Source: Candidatus Treponema caballi
GTDB lineage: Bacteria; Spirochaetota; Spirochaetia; Treponematales; Treponemataceae
Length of the DNA: 64,000 nt
Assembly (NCBI GenBank): GCA_018066285.1
Contig: JAGHRS010000003.1
Coordinates: forward strand, 1-64,000
Direction of reading: 5' to 3'
The stretch's first letter is position 1, and each line of letters begins with the position of its first letter. A model generated the notes under the pieces. That model ran no database searches. It was not told the DNA's origin and saw nothing but the letters and a program-made list of their open reading frames with translations. This document shows positions 123 to 6,883 of the stretch, piece after piece. Made by a program: the position numbers and the translations under genes.

Positions 123-1760
123 TTACAGATAAGTCTTGAGAATCTTTTCAAGGCGTTCGCGTCCGATAATCCTCATAAAGTTAGCGAGGCGCGGGCCCTG
201 ATCCTTTCCGATGAGCACCTGGTAAACTGCTGTGAAAAGCTGCTTTGTCTCAATACCGCAGTTTCCTGCAACCTCGTAGACTTTTTCAGCAAGAGCCTTG
301 TCTTCAAGACCGTCCATGACAGGAAGTACATCCTTGCAGATGCCCTGTACGGCGGCAAGTTCAACTGGAGCCAGGTCTACTTTCCTGTAGTCGGCGGCTT
401 CAGGGTCTTTCAGTGCAAAACGGAACTCTTCAGGAGCACATTCGGTAATCCAGAACCATGCGCACTTTGCGCGTGTGCGGAAAGCCTTCTCCTGTGACGG
501 CTTGATGTCGCCGATTGTGGCGATTACCTTGTCGATGTCGCCGCCGTTGATCTGCAGCAGGTTGCACAGATGGCGGAAGCCGCCGGTCAGCTGATATGGC
601 ATTTCCTCTGGCATGCCGTCTACCTGAGAAAGCTCGTAGATTCTCTTTTCCTTGGCGAAGATGTTGTCGCTCTTTGCCTTGTCCACGCCCCATACGATGC
701 GCTCAGTCTTGTCGTAGTCCTCGTATGTCTTCATGACGTCAAGGTCGAAACTGATGGTAAACTCTGTGTCAGGGCGTGTGCCGGCGAACAGGTAGCGGAC
801 GATTTCCGGCGGATAGACGCTCAGGACGTCGCGCAGTGTGGTGACGTTTCCAGAAGATGAAGACATCTTTCCGGCGCCGCCCTTGATGCCGATGAAGTCG
901 TAGCGGAATGAAACAGGTGCCGGCCAGTGGAACACTTCGTCAGCAACAAGACGTGCGGTGTCGAATGAGCCGCCCTGGCTGTGGTGGTCCTTTCCAGCAG
1001 GCTCGAACACAGTGTGCTCGTACTGCCATCTCATAGGCCAGTCAACACGCCAGCCAAGCTTTATTTCCTTTGAAGTGCGCAGGTCAGCCTTCTCAACGTG
1101 ACCGCAGCTTGTGCACTTGTAGGTAAGCTCGTACTCGCCGTCATAGTCGACCATTTCAGTTGTGTCTTTGTTACACTTGCAGCAGAACGCTGCGGTTGGC
1201 CAGTAATCGTCATCGTCAGTCATCTTGTGCTGCTCGTCGCGGTACCGGTTCAGGATTTCCTTAAGGCGGTTCCTGTTCTGCAGTGAAATACGCATGCCTT
1301 CTGCATACATGTTTGAGCGGTACCGCTCAGACTGGTACAGGTATTCAGGATGAATGCCGACCTCAGGCAGAACAGACTCAACGTCAACCTCATGATGCCG
1401 TGCATATGAAGAGTCGCGGCCTGTTGTATCAGGAACCAGCGTAATAGGATAGCGCAGGTGCTCTTTAAGAACGTCCTGGTTCGGCATATTGAGCGGGACT
1501 TTGCGGAACACGTCGTAGTCGTCCCATGAATAGATGAAGCGTACGTTTTTACCGCGGGCGCGGAGTGCGCGGACTACTAAGTCTACAGAAATGATTTCGC
1601 GGAAGTTACCGATATGTACAGTTCCGGAAGGAGTGATGCCAGATGCGCAGGTGTAAACATCAAGATCCCCGCGCTCACGGATAATCTGGTCAGCAACACG
1701 GTCAGCCCAATGATTGATGGCCGGACGTGCATTGTCATGTGGATGATTTTCGTTACTCAT
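123..1760 (-). CDS. lysS: Class I lysyl-tRNA synthetase
   Basis: Charges tRNA-Lys in the cytoplasm. This is the class I enzyme (LysK type) found in spirochaetes, archaea and a few other bacteria, not the common class II LysRS. In a 545-aa product the class I signatures are visible: HIGN near residues 49-52 and KMSSSSGN near 298-305. A cysteine cluster (CCKC near 193-196 and CTSC near 215-218) looks like a zinc-binding insert. I start at the ATG at 1760. An in-frame TTG at 1796 would add 12 residues, but it overlaps the probable -35 (TTGCAT). The -10 TATACT (1768-1773) lies 7 nt before the ATG and there is no Shine-Dalgarno sequence, so the mRNA is probably leaderless. Confidence 0.95.
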   Translation of the reverse strand: MSNENHPHDNARPAINHWADRVADQIIRERGDLDVYTCASGITPSGTVHIGNFREIISVDLVVRALRARGKNVRFIYSWDDYDVFRKVPLNMPNQDVLKEHLRYPITLVPDTTGRDSSYARHHEVDVESVLPEVGIHPEYLYQSERYRSNMYAEGMRISLQNRNRLKEILNRYRDEQHKMTDDDDYWPTAAFCCKCNKDTTEMVDYDGEYELTYKCTSCGHVEKADLRTSKEIKLGWRVDWPMRWQYEHTVFEPAGKDHHSQGGSFDTARLVADEVFHWPAPVSFRYDFIGIKGGAGKMSSSSGNVTTLRDVLSVYPPEIVRYLFAGTRPDTEFTISFDLDVMKTYEDYDKTERIVWGVDKAKSDNIFAKEKRIYELSQVDGMPEEMPYQLTGGFRHLCNLLQINGGDIDKVIATIGDIKPSQEKAFRTRAKCAWFWITECAPEEFRFALKDPEAADYRKVDLAPVELAAVQGICKDVLPVMDGLEDKALAEKVYEVAGNCGIETKQLFTAVYQVLIGKDQGPRLANFMRIIGRERLEKILKTYL

Positions 1761-1804
1761 AGGAGAGAGTATACGATTTTGTGGATAAATATGCAATTAT
1801 GCAT

Positions 1805-1836
1805 AAAAAAACAGCGCCCGTTCTGGACGCTGTTTT
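1805..1836 (-). terminator. Terminator of the first phase-variable lipoprotein gene
   Basis: The stem AAAACAGCG/CGCTGTTTT has a CC/GG extension across one mismatch and is followed on the minus strand by seven T. The stem sequence is almost the same as the terminator at 5852-5883 behind the paralogous gene, which suggests that both genes descend from one duplicated cassette. Confidence 0.8.
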
Positions 1837-1887
1837 CAAGCAAAGCACGCACTAAAAGCAGATTAAGCTTTCAGAAGCACACGCGAC

Positions 1888-2598
1888 TTAGTTTGCAGAA
1901 ACCGTTGGCCACGGTGTAGTGCGCACGTACTTTGTGTATGTTGAAGCGGGGGTAGTTGCAAATCCATCATGACTGGTGAGAGTTGCTGTGCTGCCACTGA
2001 ATTCTACACTGAAAGAGAAGTTATCACCGTCACTGGTTACCGAATAGGTATTGCCAATAATAGTTGCAAATCCAGAATACACCTCATTCTCAGCGACTAC
2101 GAGTGACATTTGTGTTAATGAGCCTGCGCCTAAATCAAATGTCAAAACAGATATGACATTACCTGCTTCTGAATGATAAAACTCCATAGTACCAATAGAT
2201 TCACCCAGTTCTCCAGGAAGGACTTTCATGTATTGCATGCCATACAAAACTATGATACCAACTCCGTCTTGTACTTCCAGAGTATAGACATTAGTATCTC
2301 CTTCAATAGTGAATGAAAGACCATTTCTGACTATCGTTTCGGTATCTTCAATTTCCTGCGTTGCTGCATTCAAACCAGCAAGCGAAGTATCTGCCATCAT
2401 GCCATATAAGGTAGCGGTATTCCCTGAAATAACAAGCGTTTCCCAATTACATGGCTTACCAGATATAGTTAATGTCGTTACATACATACCATCGAGAGTA
2501 GTAAGGTCCGGGGTTGGGGTGGAATCTGGTTCATGCTTGCATGCTGTGAAACAGAAAAGAACTGTCAGAACAAGCAGTGCTGAAATAAACTTCTTCAT
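1888..2598 (-). CDS. Lipoprotein with TTPWP C-terminal motif, paralogue A
   Basis: I do not recognise the function. The 236-aa product has a lipoprotein signal peptide with lipobox FTAC (Cys20) and a short Pro/Thr linker, followed by a beta-rich domain. It is a paralogue of the protein at 5000-5830. Shared features are the N-terminal pattern MKK-I-AL-FCFTAC, the early TTLDG-YV block, GKP, and the C-terminal Y-(K/R)-Y-(V/I)-RTTPWP block. SD-like AGGAG precedes the ATG. Transcription starts from a promoter with nine G between the -35 and -10 boxes, and the leader contains a 12-bp perfect hairpin. Export to a membrane surface is inferred; its exposure outside the cell is plausible but not shown. 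Confidence 0.85.
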   Translation of the reverse strand: MKKFISALLVLTVLFCFTACKHEPDSTPTPDLTTLDGMYVTTLTISGKPCNWETLVISGNTATLYGMMADTSLAGLNAATQEIEDTETIVRNGLSFTIEGDTNVYTLEVQDGVGIIVLYGMQYMKVLPGELGESIGTMEFYHSEAGNVISVLTFDLGAGSLTQMSLVVAENEVYSGFATIIGNTYSVTSDGDNFSFSVEFSGSTATLTSHDGFATTPASTYTKYVRTTPWPTVSAN

Positions 2599-2617
2599 AT
2601 AAATCTCCTTTTTTAGT

Positions 2618-2657
2618 CTGCGCTTCCAGTTGTCTTGAAAGCCAGCTGGAAGCGCAG
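2618..2657 (-). other. Leader hairpin upstream of lipoprotein A
   Basis: CTGCGCTTCCAG (2618-2629) and CTGGAAGCGCAG (2646-2657) are perfect 12-bp inverted arms with a 16-nt loop. They sit between the promoter and the ribosome-binding site. No T-run follows on either strand, so this is not a terminator. It could stabilise the mRNA or bind a protein. Confidence 0.7.
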
Positions 2658-2668
2658 TTCATAAAAAG

Positions 2669-2696
2669 AGTGTACCCCCCCCCGCAAATCTGTCAA
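2669..2696 (-). promoter_or_regulatory. Promoter with G9 tract in the spacer
   Basis: On the minus strand: TTGACA (2696-2691), a 16-nt spacer of GATTTGC plus nine G (2683-2675), then TACACT (2674-2669). Slippage in the G tract would change the -35/-10 spacing and so the promoter strength. The promoter at 4914-4941 has the same layout and the same 16-nt spacer. Confidence 0.8.
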
Positions 2697-2737
2697 CACA
2701 AGCAGACGGCGGGTCGTTGCGAGGGCTACGGCCCTTT

Positions 2738-3619
2738 TTATCCCAGTATCTGGAGGAGTTGTGCTTCTATCTGCTGGCTCTGGAGCGGCGTTTCCTTATC
2801 TTCAAACGTCATGAGAAAGCTGAATGGCGCGCTTTTCTGAACCTCAGACTTGTCTGCATCATAAGGAGCACAATCTGCTTTCAGGTGCCCCGCGCGGGCA
2901 GCTTCAATGTAGCATATGTAGTCGTTTATCTTCTTGATGGTATGAGCGCAGTAATCAGGTTTGTCCATGCAGCCAAAGTGCTCCCAGACAAACTCGCGGC
3001 CCGTGGCGGGGTTCAGGATGAAAAAGTCTGCATAGTACAATGTGTCATTCAATAGCCTGATTGGGTACTCATAGTGGAAAGGCAACCCCGCCTGATGCAG
3101 CGCGTCAGCTATGAGCGCCTCGCTTTTTGAACGCACAGGAACACCTGCTTTTGTCATGAGGTTGGGCTTTTCAGGGAAGGGATTTGCCTTGTAGCGCTTC
3201 TTTTTCCAGAATGCAACAGCCTGCTCAGCAGTCCCTGCGTTCTCAGGGGTGACCAGGCGACGGCGCCCAGGCAGAAGCGCGTCATATACAGGCTGCACGC
3301 TTTCACTCACATAGCCGCTGATGGCTTTATCCAGAAAAGAAAGCTCTTTTTGCTTATGTTCGAGAAGCGCCCTCTCGTAGTCCCGCTGTGCAATGGCGGC
3401 CGCGGTGCGCTCTTCTGACTTTGGAAGGTACCTGCCGTTGGTATCGCCTTCACTATACGAGACATAGTATTGGTATTTTGGAGCACCGCCTCTGCCTTTT
3501 TTGGTGACTACTCTGAGGCGGCCAGCTGGTGCATGTTTCAGTTTCTCTTTTAATCTTGAGCAGGCCAGACCTGTCCGCTTTCTGCGCACTATAAGTTCCT
3601 GCAGTATTTTTTCTGTCAT
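2738..3619 (-). CDS. PD-(D/E)XK nuclease-fold protein, hypothetical
   Basis: The function is not known. The N-terminal third (about residues 1-120) is charged, with long helices. The C-terminal half carries a pattern typical of restriction-endonuclease-like folds: SKSEALIADAL near residue 165, YYADFFIL about 30 residues on, then REFVWEHFG. The E, D and E-x-H spacing fits a PD-(D/E)XK active site. A good SD (AAAGGGGG) precedes the ATG. Upstream, GTGAAGCA/TGCTTCAC (3644-3651 and 3672-3679) can pair in the leader. No methylase or specificity partner is adjacent, so a restriction-modification role is not supported. Confidence 0.65.
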   Translation of the reverse strand: MTEKILQELIVRRKRTGLACSRLKEKLKHAPAGRLRVVTKKGRGGAPKYQYYVSYSEGDTNGRYLPKSEERTAAAIAQRDYERALLEHKQKELSFLDKAISGYVSESVQPVYDALLPGRRRLVTPENAGTAEQAVAFWKKKRYKANPFPEKPNLMTKAGVPVRSKSEALIADALHQAGLPFHYEYPIRLLNDTLYYADFFILNPATGREFVWEHFGCMDKPDYCAHTIKKINDYICYIEAARAGHLKADCAPYDADKSEVQKSAPFSFLMTFEDKETPLQSQQIEAQLLQILG

Positions 3620-3964
3620 TCAAGGCCCCCTTTCAATGGAAATGTGAAGCAGAGTGGCATATATTTCAGCGTGCTTCACTCTTTATTTATGACAGGGACA
3701 GGGCTTTTTCTTAAAAAAAGAGTGTTAAAAATGAAAAAATACTTTGTTTTCAGCAGAAAGAGCGCTGGATTGCAGGAAAAATTGATGAATTCATGGGAAA
3801 ACTGGCCGAAATCAGGGAATGCAGACTCTGCTTTTGTAAAAGTGTCATATTATGAAGGCTGAAATGGCAATTCTATATGCCAGTCCGCGTAACAGGCGCG
3901 CTGCGCCCCAGCAAGTCCCAGCAAGTCCCAGCAAGTCCCAGCAAGTCCCAGCAAGCCCCAGGTC
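3620..3964. other. 345-bp intergenic region, no convincing gene
   Basis: It holds the nuclease leader with its 8-bp inverted repeat, then a low-complexity stretch, then the decamer repeats described separately. A GTG-start frame at 3644-3862 (+, 72 codons) has no ribosome-binding site or homology I recognise. A second frame through about 3724-3855 (+) reads more like coding sequence (KERWIAGKIDEFMGK) but lacks a start codon. It may be the remnant of a lost gene. Confidence 0.4.
3907..3960. repeat. Five tandem copies of a 10-bp unit
   Basis: The unit CCCAGCAAGT is repeated head to tail: four perfect copies (3907-3946), a fifth with one change (3947-3956), and the first four bases of a sixth. 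The array begins 4 bp beyond the purU stop codon, so it would lie in the purU 3' untranslated region. A perfect short tandem repeat of this kind is liable to copy-number change. Confidence 0.9.
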
Positions 3965-4816
3965 TTACTCAATGACAAATGTCCTGCCTTCATAGCAGAA
4001 CACTGCATGGGCTAAATATCTGCGGACACTTTCAAAGAGCACGTGGCGCTCAACATCCTTTCCCATGGTGATGAATTCTTCTATTGAGCGGGTGTCGTTC
4101 ACGCGGATGACATCCTGGAAGATGATCGGGCCCTGATCAAGGTCTTCTGTGGCGAAGTGGCCTGTTGCGCCAATAATCTTTACTCCCTTCTTCCATGCCT
4201 GGTGATAGGGCTTTGCGCCCTTGAAAGCTGGAAGGAAGCCGTGGTGTATGTTGATGCAGCGATTGTTCCATTTCTTGCAGAAGTCGCCGCTCATAACCTG
4301 CATGTAACGGGCCAGGACAACGAGGTCAATCTTGTAGTCTTCAAGGAGCGAGTTCAGGTCTGCTTCGTACTCTGCTTTTCCCTTTGCAGGATCAACCTGG
4401 AAGAACGGAATATGAAAAGCAGTAGCGACATGTGCTAAATCCGGGTGGTTTGAGATGATGACGGGAATCTCGCAGTCAAGCTCGCCCGCATCGTGCTTCA
4501 GAAGCAGCTCATACAGGCAGTGGCTCGTCTTTGAAACAAGGACGGCAACGCGCTTTTTCTGGGCTGTATCATGGATCTTCCAGTCCATCTTGTACTTGTC
4601 TGCAAGTTTGCTGAAAGACGCTGAGAATGAATCCTGATTGAATGCGTCAGTTCCTGAAAACTTGACGCGGATGAAGAACATGCCAATATCTGTAGCAGTG
4701 TGTTGTGCAAGGTTAACGATGTTGCAGCCATTGTCAGCAATGGTGTCTGTGATTGCAGCGATAATGCCGCTCTGGTCCTGGCAGCTCGCGGTCAGGATAA
4801 ACTCTTTTTCAGCCAT
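3965..4816 (-). CDS. purU: Formyltetrahydrofolate deformylase
   Basis: Hydrolyses 10-formyl-THF to formate and THF, supplying formate and balancing the one-carbon pool. The 283-aa product has an N-terminal ACT domain (TASCQDQSGIIAAITDTI, residues about 8-25) and a C-terminal formyltransferase fold with NIHHGFLPAFKGAKPYHQA and GATGHFATEDLDQGPII. The family usually has HHSFLP, so Ser is Gly here; the catalytic His and the Asp of the LDQGP block remain. The frame stays open upstream to 4897, but conservation starts at the ATG at 4816. TATAGT (4823-4828), preceded by TG as an extended -10, lies 6 nt before the ATG with no SD, so this is a leaderless candidate. Confidence 0.92.
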   Translation of the reverse strand: MAEKEFILTASCQDQSGIIAAITDTIADNGCNIVNLAQHTATDIGMFFIRVKFSGTDAFNQDSFSASFSKLADKYKMDWKIHDTAQKKRVAVLVSKTSHCLYELLLKHDAGELDCEIPVIISNHPDLAHVATAFHIPFFQVDPAKGKAEYEADLNSLLEDYKIDLVVLARYMQVMSGDFCKKWNNRCINIHHGFLPAFKGAKPYHQAWKKGVKIIGATGHFATEDLDQGPIIFQDVIRVNDTRSIEEFITMGKDVERHVLFESVRRYLAHAVFCYEGRTFVIE

Positions 4817-4913
4817 GCGCTCACTATAGCAGAAATGAAAGGCTTGTGGAAGAACAAGAGATGTGCTGAAGGCATAGAGGGATGTGAGAAGATCCAAGGT
4901 CTCGCTGTTTCCC

Positions 4914-4941
4914 TTGACAGAAACCGGGGGGGGGGTACACT
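4914..4941 (+). promoter_or_regulatory. Promoter with G10 tract in the spacer
   Basis: TTGACA (4914-4919), a 16-nt spacer of GAAACC plus ten G (4926-4935), then TACACT (4936-4941). Geometry and boxes match the promoter of the paralogous gene at 2669-2696. The leader (about 4948-4999) can form CATTCTGC/GCA-GGAATG (about 4971-4973 onward) and has the SD AAAGGAG just before the ATG. Confidence 0.85.
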
Positions 4942-4999
4942 GAAAAAGACATTCTGCCCCATGCAGGAATGTTCATTTCGTATAGTAAAGGAGAATATA

Positions 5000-5830
5000 A
5001 TGAAAAAGCTTATTACAGCACTCATGATTCTGGCAGTGGTTTTCTGCTTCACCGCATGTGAACCTGAAAACGACCCAACCCCACCAACCCCACCAACCCC
5101 ACCAGCTGATATAGACGGTCCGGGTACCATCGATACCACCACACTCGATGGTATTTATGTACAGACAATGAATCTCTGCGGAAAGCCAATAAATATGTAT
5201 GTCTATGTCATTGATGGCAACAGCATGTCTTCATACGGAGCAATGCCTTCTGAAGAGCATATCGATGATTCGTTTCCCAATGCGGCTTATTTCGATAGTG
5301 TGTCCATGACAAAGGTGTCAACTGAAACAATTACAAGAGACGATGTAAACATGACCTTTTCAGATGAATATGATGAGTACCAGTTAATCACCAACGCAAA
5401 TGGTACATGGCTTGTAAATGTTGCACATCCGGATGATTTAGATGATGCCTTCCAGAAAGTCGAGCGTGGCCACTATGGTACCCCCATAGATAAAGTAGAT
5501 TACTTTCTCAAAAATAATGCTGCATTATTTGTTTACTACGACGATGGAAAGATAGGCGATGTTACCGTATTTACTGCGGCGAACATTTACGAAGCACTGG
5601 CTGGAACAACAAGCGGCAACACCTACACGGCAGCCGGTCTTTACGTATATAGAGAAATAGATAGCGTACATGAAATTCCTAATGGAACTTTCAAAGTTAC
5701 CGTCAACGGCAACACAGCTACTGTAAGCGACACAAGCGGGTTCCCGAATGTAGATGCTACGGTAGTGCCAGGCAACTACACCAGGTACATCCGCACCACT
5801 CCATGGCCTGCAGCACCTGCAGCTGAGTAA
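5000..5830 (+). CDS. Lipoprotein with TTPWP C-terminal motif, paralogue B
   Basis: The function is not recognised. The 276-aa product has a lipobox FTAC (Cys20), followed by a Pro-Thr linker (PTPPTPPTPP) encoded by a 9-bp tandem repeat at about 5074-5104, which could change length in frame. A beta-rich domain with TTLDGIYV and GKP ends in RYIRTTPWP, as in the paralogue at 1888-2598. The ATG at 5000 follows SD AAAGGAG; the frame is open further upstream, but those codons cross the promoter. The gene has its own promoter and terminator, so it is monocistronic. With its paralogue it forms a small family that probably varies in expression. Confidence 0.87.
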   Translation: MKKLITALMILAVVFCFTACEPENDPTPPTPPTPPADIDGPGTIDTTTLDGIYVQTMNLCGKPINMYVYVIDGNSMSSYGAMPSEEHIDDSFPNAAYFDSVSMTKVSTETITRDDVNMTFSDEYDEYQLITNANGTWLVNVAHPDDLDDAFQKVERGHYGTPIDKVDYFLKNNAALFVYYDDGKIGDVTVFTAANIYEALAGTTSGNTYTAAGLYVYREIDSVHEIPNGTFKVTVNGNTATVSDTSGFPNVDATVVPGNYTRYIRTTPWPAAPAAE

Positions 5831-5851
5831 AGCATACAGCCTTTAAAATGC

Positions 5852-5883
5852 AAACAGCGTCCATCCAGGACGCTGTTTTTTTT
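5852..5883. terminator. Bidirectional terminator with shared family stem
   Basis: The perfect 11-bp stem AAACAGCGTCC/GGACGCTGTTT (5852-5862, 5868-5878) has a 5-nt loop and T-runs on the 3' side. It ends the lipoprotein B transcript and overlaps the 3' end of the convergent HD-GYP gene. Confidence 0.88.
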
Positions 5884-6883
5884 ACGGCTTTGTATTAAAC
5901 GTCACCGGCTGAGTAATGTCGAAGATTTTTCTGACCTGTCCGCTGACGTCAATAAACGCGTTGACAACAGCAGGGTCAAACTTTCTGCCGGATTCTGCCT
6001 TCAGGAATTCGATAATTTCGTCATGCGAATAGGGAAGACTGTATGACCGCGCTGTTCTGAGCGAATCGTAACAGTCTGCCACGGCGACAATCCTGCCTTC
6101 AAGCGGAATGGCGTCTCCTGAAAGATGGCGGGGATAGCCTTCGCCATTCCACTGCTCGTGATGAGTGTACGCAATGGATGCAGCCATCTCGAATTCCTGT
6201 TTGTTCTTGAGGATCTGCCAGCCGATTGTGGTATGCAGCATGATGACTTCACGTTCCTGTGCCGAAAGATGCCGCGGAACATGAAGGATGCCGTCAGGAA
6301 TGCCAACCTTACCGATATCGTGCATAGGCGCGAAAGTACGGATGTCATTGCAGAACTGTTCGGGCAGATCCATCATGCGGCTGATAAGCTCACTGACAAC
6401 ACCGATACGCTCCATATGCTCCGCTGTTTCGTGGTCGCGGCGCTCGGCGAGACTTGTCAGCGACTTGTAGCAGGAAAGCCGCACCTTCTTTTCCTTGGCG
6501 CGGGCAGTCTGCTCGTAGTCAATAATACGCTTTGCTGATTTCAGACGTGCACTTAACTCAGCCCCAACAACGGGCTTTGTCAGATAATCGTCTGCACCTC
6601 TTTCAAGGCCTTCAACAATATCCTCGTTATCTACCCGTGATGTCAGGAGAATGATGTAGGTAAAGTTTTTTTCTCCCGTTCCCTTGATGCGTTCACACAG
6701 TTCAGGTCCTGTTATTCCCGGCATATTCCAGTCAAAAATTGCCAGCGGAAATTCATCTTCAAGATATGATTCCCATGCTTGAGAACCATTTTCGCAGGCG
6801 ATTACCGTGTGTCCGTCTTTTTCAAGAAATTTGGTCAGATACAGCCGGATGGCGTTATCATCGTCAGCAAACAATATTTTCAT
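5882..6883 (-). CDS. Response regulator with HD-GYP output domain
   Basis: A 333-aa RpfG-type protein that probably hydrolyses cyclic di-GMP under phosphorelay control. The receiver domain (residues 1-120) has the acidic cluster ADDD near the start, the phospho-acceptor Asp in IFDWNMP near 52, and a conserved Lys in YLTKPV. A linker helix leads to the HD-GYP domain (about 140-325) with MHDIGK, HHEQWNGEGYP and VADCYD, so the metal ligands and the GYP loop are intact. No histidine kinase is adjacent. TATACT (6890-6895) lies 6 nt before the ATG with no SD, so the mRNA is probably leaderless. Confidence 0.93.
   Translation of the reverse strand: MKILFADDDNAIRLYLTKFLEKDGHTVIACENGSQAWESYLEDEFPLAIFDWNMPGITGPELCERIKGTGEKNFTYIILLTSRVDNEDIVEGLERGADDYLTKPVVGAELSARLKSAKRIIDYEQTARAKEKKVRLSCYKSLTSLAERRDHETAEHMERIGVVSELISRMMDLPEQFCNDIRTFAPMHDIGKVGIPDGILHVPRHLSAQEREVIMLHTTIGWQILKNKQEFEMAASIAYTHHEQWNGEGYPRHLSGDAIPLEGRIVAVADCYDSLRTARSYSLPYSHDEIIEFLKAESGRKFDPAVVNAFIDVSGQVRKIFDITQPVTFNTKP

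Follow-up and report, generated by a model that had tools for sequence, protein, structure and literature searches.

We analyzed a stretch of 64,000 nucleotides from Candidatus Treponema caballi (contig JAGHRS010000003.1, positions 1 to 64,000; hereafter the window), in which two lipoprotein genes are each preceded by a promoter with a run of guanines between its -35 and -10 elements (Table 1). The two genes are divergent and point away from each other. Downstream of each promoter lies a Shine-Dalgarno site, followed by an ATG that opens a lipoprotein signal peptide ending in CFTAC. The encoded proteins share 37 to 39% identity and a common RTTPWP tail plus a few residues. Based on the lipobox FTAC, both products are predicted lipoproteins that are probably displayed on the cell surface.

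Table 1. Positions of the two poly-G promoters, their lipoprotein genes, and the intervening genes, numbered from the first base of the window.
Feature	Position	Strand	Evidence
-35 element TTGACA, lipoprotein gene 1	2691..2696	-	sequence reading; motif search; sigma-70-like site scan
G9 tract, -10 side of the 16-nt spacer of gene 1	2675..2683	-	sequence reading; motif search; tract count
-10 element TACACT, lipoprotein gene 1	2669..2674	-	motif search; sigma-70-like scan; TANNNT in 117/122 related sites
Lipoprotein gene 1, 236 aa, lipobox FTAC, C-terminal RTTPWP	1888..2598	-	translation; alignment; lipobox classifier
-35 element TTGACA, lipoprotein gene 2	4914..4919	+	sequence reading; motif search; sigma-70-like site scan
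G10 tract, -10 side of the 16-nt spacer of gene 2	4926..4935	+	sequence reading; motif search; tract count
-10 element TACACT, lipoprotein gene 2	4936..4941	+	sequence reading; motif search; sigma-70-like site scan
Lipoprotein gene 2, 276 aa, lipobox FTAC, C-terminal RTTPWP	5000..5830	+	translation; alignment; lipobox classifier
Hypothetical gene between the lipoprotein genes	2738-3619	-	
purU, formyltetrahydrofolate deformylase gene, between the lipoprotein genes	about 3965-4816	-	

Poly-G promoters in the window and the genome

The promoter of gene 1 reads TTGACA-N7-G9-TACACT (2696-2669, minus strand), with the prefix GATTTGC before the tract, and that of gene 2 reads TTGACA-N6-G10-TACACT (4914-4941, plus strand), with the prefix GAAACC; the spacer is 16 nt in both. 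A preliminary description of this DNA had claimed the same TTGACA, 16-nt spacer, and TACACT before two paralogous lipoprotein genes, and both the coordinates and the proteins bear this out. The two tracts are the only runs of at least eight guanines (G8+) in the window, where overlapping G8 matches number 5 versus 0.31 expected (0/100 shuffles). Within positions 1750-6000, the two promoters are the top-scoring sigma-70-like sites (10/12 positions).

The preliminary description had also proposed searching the rest of the genome for such promoters before genes whose products contain RTTPWP. With up to 3 mismatches allowed, the exact motif occurs at these two sites only in the 2.9-Mb genome, and the reversed control gave none. 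The looser pattern TTGACA-N(4-12)-G7+-TA, applied to this genome and to the genus, recovered further promoters of the same design, for five in all (C4 twice, C24:76388, C61:61577, and C66:21443), with spacers of 15, 16, 16, 17, and 17 nt. All of the genome's approximately 16 distinct G8+ tracts were read, and a sixth promoter, GTGACA-N8-G10-TATACT, lies at C41:36060; the pair in the window belongs to this set of six. Five of the six immediately precede a lipoprotein signal peptide. The exception, at C66:21443 (L048), has no lipoprotein behind it, and a radical S-adenosylmethionine-like frame starts 212 to 258 nt downstream.

Recurrence across relatives and the genes behind the promoters

Within the genus, the looser pattern found 12 sites in 3/7 genomes and its reversed control found 0; in two congeneric relatives, the genes behind the poly-G promoters encode mostly lipoproteins, plus one beta-barrel-like protein. 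For the family, we searched 80 genomes that were at least 95% complete with TTGACA-N(2-24)-G8+-TA and recovered 142 sites in 44 of them, with up to 20 per genome, versus 2 sites for the reversed pattern and 2 for poly-C. A separate run placed the design in 88/195 genomes and 12/20 genera of the family. A phylum-wide sample detected it in 41 of 198 genomes, comprising 28 in this family and 13 outside, nearly all of which belong to other families of the same class. Several of the sites outside the family likewise stand before lipoproteins. Genomes of genus g42, from another family of the class (L258-L261), carry up to 9 such promoters each, mostly with TACC or TAC before the G tract.

TANNNT was completed in 117/122 sites, although the search demanded only TA, and the -35/-10 distance was 14 to 19 nt in 117/133 sites, with 10 to 32 nt allowed (p about 1e-50 versus uniform). 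Because neither the completed TANNNT nor the 14- to 19-nt spacing was part of the search pattern, we conclude that the sites are real promoters; their recurrence is not chance. It is extremely unlikely that the two tracts in the window represent random poly-G near promoter-like sequence or wrong homopolymer counts. A draft assembly may miscount a homopolymer by one base, and this genome is in 75 contigs, but the low yield of both controls, the presence of the unsearched T, and the occurrence of the same design in genomes with megabase-size contigs argue against an artifact.

We applied simple lipobox and signal peptide rules to the first good reading frame downstream of each site, with 30 ordinary TTGACA-N(16-18)-TATAAT promoters of related genomes as the control set. 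Lipobox proteins followed 85/132 poly-G promoters versus 2/30 controls (Fisher p 3e-9), a comparison made with a crude classifier on phylogenetically non-independent sites, in which the “none” class takes in intragenic and truncated sites. Another 19 of the 132 genes, and 8/30 of the controls, encode a signal peptide or membrane segment without a lipobox. The genes behind poly-G promoters are mostly non-homologous to one another, and the promoter design is their shared feature. Given that the two genes in the window are paralogs, their common TACACT and poly-G could have been inherited through a single duplication of promoter and gene, leaving the tracts as relics without a switching role. This explanation, which we regard as very unlikely, is largely refuted by the same design before non-homologous lipoproteins in this genome and in other genera; the rarity of G8+ tracts and the different prefixes of the two spacers also count against it.

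The RTTPWP proteins themselves were searched for at several scales. No third copy of RTTPWP was found in this genome, and no convincing homolog of the pair was found among 195 genomes of the family. A Pfam search gave no match, an NCBIfam search gave one subthreshold match (gene 2) and no family above the curated cutoff, and a scan of genome contigs for the lipoprotein yielded just one match, to a signal peptide, in Flavivirga. The two-row alignment, modeled with AlphaFold, gave a vaguely all-beta structure (predicted local distance difference test score, 44), too poor for a fold search. The preliminary description had proposed a surface family; the recurrence of the promoter design agrees with this, but only two RTTPWP proteins were found, and the other poly-G promoters precede other lipoproteins. 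The “family” is one promoter design that recurs before surface-protein genes, most of them unrelated, and the RTTPWP pair was found in this genome only.

Tract length, spacing, and the proposed switch

Most work on poly-G phase variation in treponemes concerns the syphilis agent, where it is interpreted as immune evasion. In the family searched here, tracts are 8 to 18 guanines long, with a peak at 9 and no decay from 7, and close relatives differ in tract length within nearly identical flanks. Orthologous promoters carry G10 versus G9 at L195/L211, with 2 substitutions in 400 downstream bases and 0 upstream, as well as G10 versus G9 at L175/L208 and G13 versus G9 at L127/L128. Over the clean orthologous pairs, the G count differs in 6/11 and the total spacing in 5/11. 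One other pair, L189/L205 (G072 and G077), has the same flanks but tracts of G8 and G10; it lies inside a reading frame and was therefore left out of the promoter evidence. The length difference there would shift the reading frame.

Long tracts pair with short prefixes across the family (Spearman -0.34), and the variance of the total spacer is 4.9 versus 8.9 expected with prefix and tract length independent; in a core subset, the difference is weak (3.15 versus 3.65; p 0.04). These values provide weaker evidence that total spacing is constrained, but to a band only. The preliminary description had taken two spacers of exactly 16 nt to suggest selection for spacing. Selection for exactly this length is rejected: the TTGACA spacers of this genome span 15 to 17 nt, and most family sites fall anywhere from 14 to 19 nt, so that only the looser constraint survives from that claim. 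That both spacers equal 16 nt is coincidental.

The closest known system is TP0126 of T. pallidum, in which a poly-G tract lies between the -35 and -10 elements and transcription is best at a 17-nt spacer; 76% of 17 tracts tested in that species vary in length (PMC7864442). The porA gene of Neisseria meningitidis also has poly-G between the two elements, with expression dependent on spacing (as described in PMC7864442). For the T. pallidum surface-protein genes tprE/G/J and tprL, transcription is controlled by a promoter-region poly-G, which at tprL spans part of the -10 element (PMC7864442). A further report describes heterogeneity of tracts located mostly in predicted promoter regions (PMC12223175). 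A study that compared homopolymer counts between bovine and human treponemes reported the lowest number for T. ruminis, a commensal, and in the part of that article considered here the homopolymers are not placed in promoters (PMC8049484).

Both promoters in the window resemble TP0126 and porA in having a G8+ tract between the -35 and -10 elements, a 16-nt spacing near the 17-nt optimum, and an exported protein (lipobox) behind them. As in TP0126, the tract abuts the -10 of a sigma-70-like promoter before a surface-protein gene. TP0126, however, encodes an outer membrane beta-barrel (an OmpW homolog), whereas the proteins here are lipoproteins of no known family, with several such genes per genome. 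porA differs in being a single porin gene from an unrelated phylum. The preliminary description had cited the tpr genes as precedent. They share promoter-region poly-G and surface-protein products with the present pair, and poly-G does affect their transcription (PMC7864442), but the tprL tract overlaps its -10 instead of lying in the spacer, and the fitting precedent is TP0126 (and meningococcal porA), not tprE/G/J. In our own searches, a T. pallidum-sized genome has an exported-protein gene at 148 kb (L265) preceded by TCGACA-N9-G9-TAGAAT, and another at 157 kb with a similar design in front of it; based on position and product, the 148-kb gene looks like TP0126. We found no published description of a clade-wide association of poly-G promoters with lipoproteins in the open-license literature. 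The mechanism is already known; the family-wide breadth and the almost exclusive G-strand orientation appear to be undescribed.

Based on the recurrence, the strand specificity, the TP0126 precedent, and the tract differences between orthologs, we consider it likely (roughly 80%) that the two genes encode phase-variable surface lipoproteins controlled, as in TP0126, by a slippage-prone G tract between the -35 and -10 elements, as the preliminary description had thought probable. Each lipoprotein gene would have a sigma-70-type promoter with a hypermutable G tract as the -10-proximal part of its spacer. We infer that, within the strain, guanines are gained or lost through slipped-strand mispairing as the DNA replicates, which would shift the -35/-10 distance through and off an optimum near 17 nt. 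In individual cells, transcription of each such gene would then rise or fall in steps, independently of the others. With 16-nt spacers, both genes would sit near but under the optimum, and one extra G is predicted to raise expression. The role may be bet-hedging against immunity, phage, or changing niches.

Several observations weigh against this switch. Poly-C would slip equally well yet is almost absent (2 sites versus 142); slippage alone does not account for this bias. Spacer length differs in only 5 of the 11 orthologous pairs and G count in only 6, and homopolymers may be miscounted in some of the assemblies. A spacing of 17 nt is also rarer than 15 to 16 or 18 to 19 nt in a set of sites that are non-independent within genomes and clades; clade structure may be the cause. 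The G tract could instead be a fixed element, structural or contacted by a protein, that belongs to a dedicated promoter class, with length changes incidental. It might, for instance, stiffen the spacer DNA, form a contact beside the -10, or bind a surface-lipoprotein regulator. The nearly exclusive placement of G on the coding strand against the -10, the peak at 9 in place of a decay from 7, and the partly compensated total spacing would all fit such an element. We nevertheless consider it unlikely, given that lengths range so widely across the family, that near-identical orthologous promoters differ, and that the same architecture in T. pallidum is both length-variable and length-sensitive (PMC7864442).

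The presence of these promoters in more than half of the family genomes searched (44/80), with up to 20 sites each, suggests that the family and some neighboring spirochetes generally switch surface lipoproteins through spacer length. If true, such switching is not special to the pathogen and can be tested in cultivable relatives. The almost exclusive G orientation raises the testable question of whether the G strand matters beyond slippage. A broader proposal, about which we are doubtful, is that TTGACA-N-G(8+)-TANNNT represents a spirochete-wide design whose G tract on the coding strand serves as a slippage switch and is also required for the promoter. Under this proposal, the design would spread among unrelated genes, and treponemes far removed from the syphilis agent would have a lipoprotein “phasome” in which as many as about 20 surface genes per genome switch independently.

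Leaders, intergenic repeats, and other poly-G tracts

The 5' leader of gene 1 (window 2605-2668, minus strand) contains a perfect 12-bp hairpin, CTGCGCTTCCAG/CTGGAAGCGCAG, immediately 5' of the Shine-Dalgarno site (z about -5), and the leader of gene 2 contains a weak hairpin only. As a class feature of poly-G promoters, the leader hairpin is not claimed, with no clear difference from control leaders (p 0.36); restriction to leaders of at least 40 nt gave p 0.04, but with only 7 controls. An Rfam search of ten loci matched no leader family. In genome G063, the leaders at L112, L113, L116, L117, and L118 share a GCGGAA(C/T)C-like motif inside larger predicted folds, with no Rfam match. Between purU and the hypothetical gene, 10-bp tandem repeats, CCCAGCAAGT, occupy window positions 3907-3961.

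Other tracts in the genome that contains the window lie in different settings. At L018 1509-1770 (C36) and L027 1510-1830 (C61), G8/G9 tracts are followed by palindromic repeat arrays with TAAAATACTAG/CTAGTATTTTA in common; the arms differ, with ACCATGA in one and ACCGACAC in the other. A G9 tract at L008 1501-1509 (C5:136393) falls within an open frame of ~400 codons and is a possible coding-sequence slippage site. A G10 tract at about 1050-1059 of L024 (C59) lies within a methyltransferase-like reading frame, where it encodes the glycines of a CGGGA motif, and this gene could be phase variable by frameshift.
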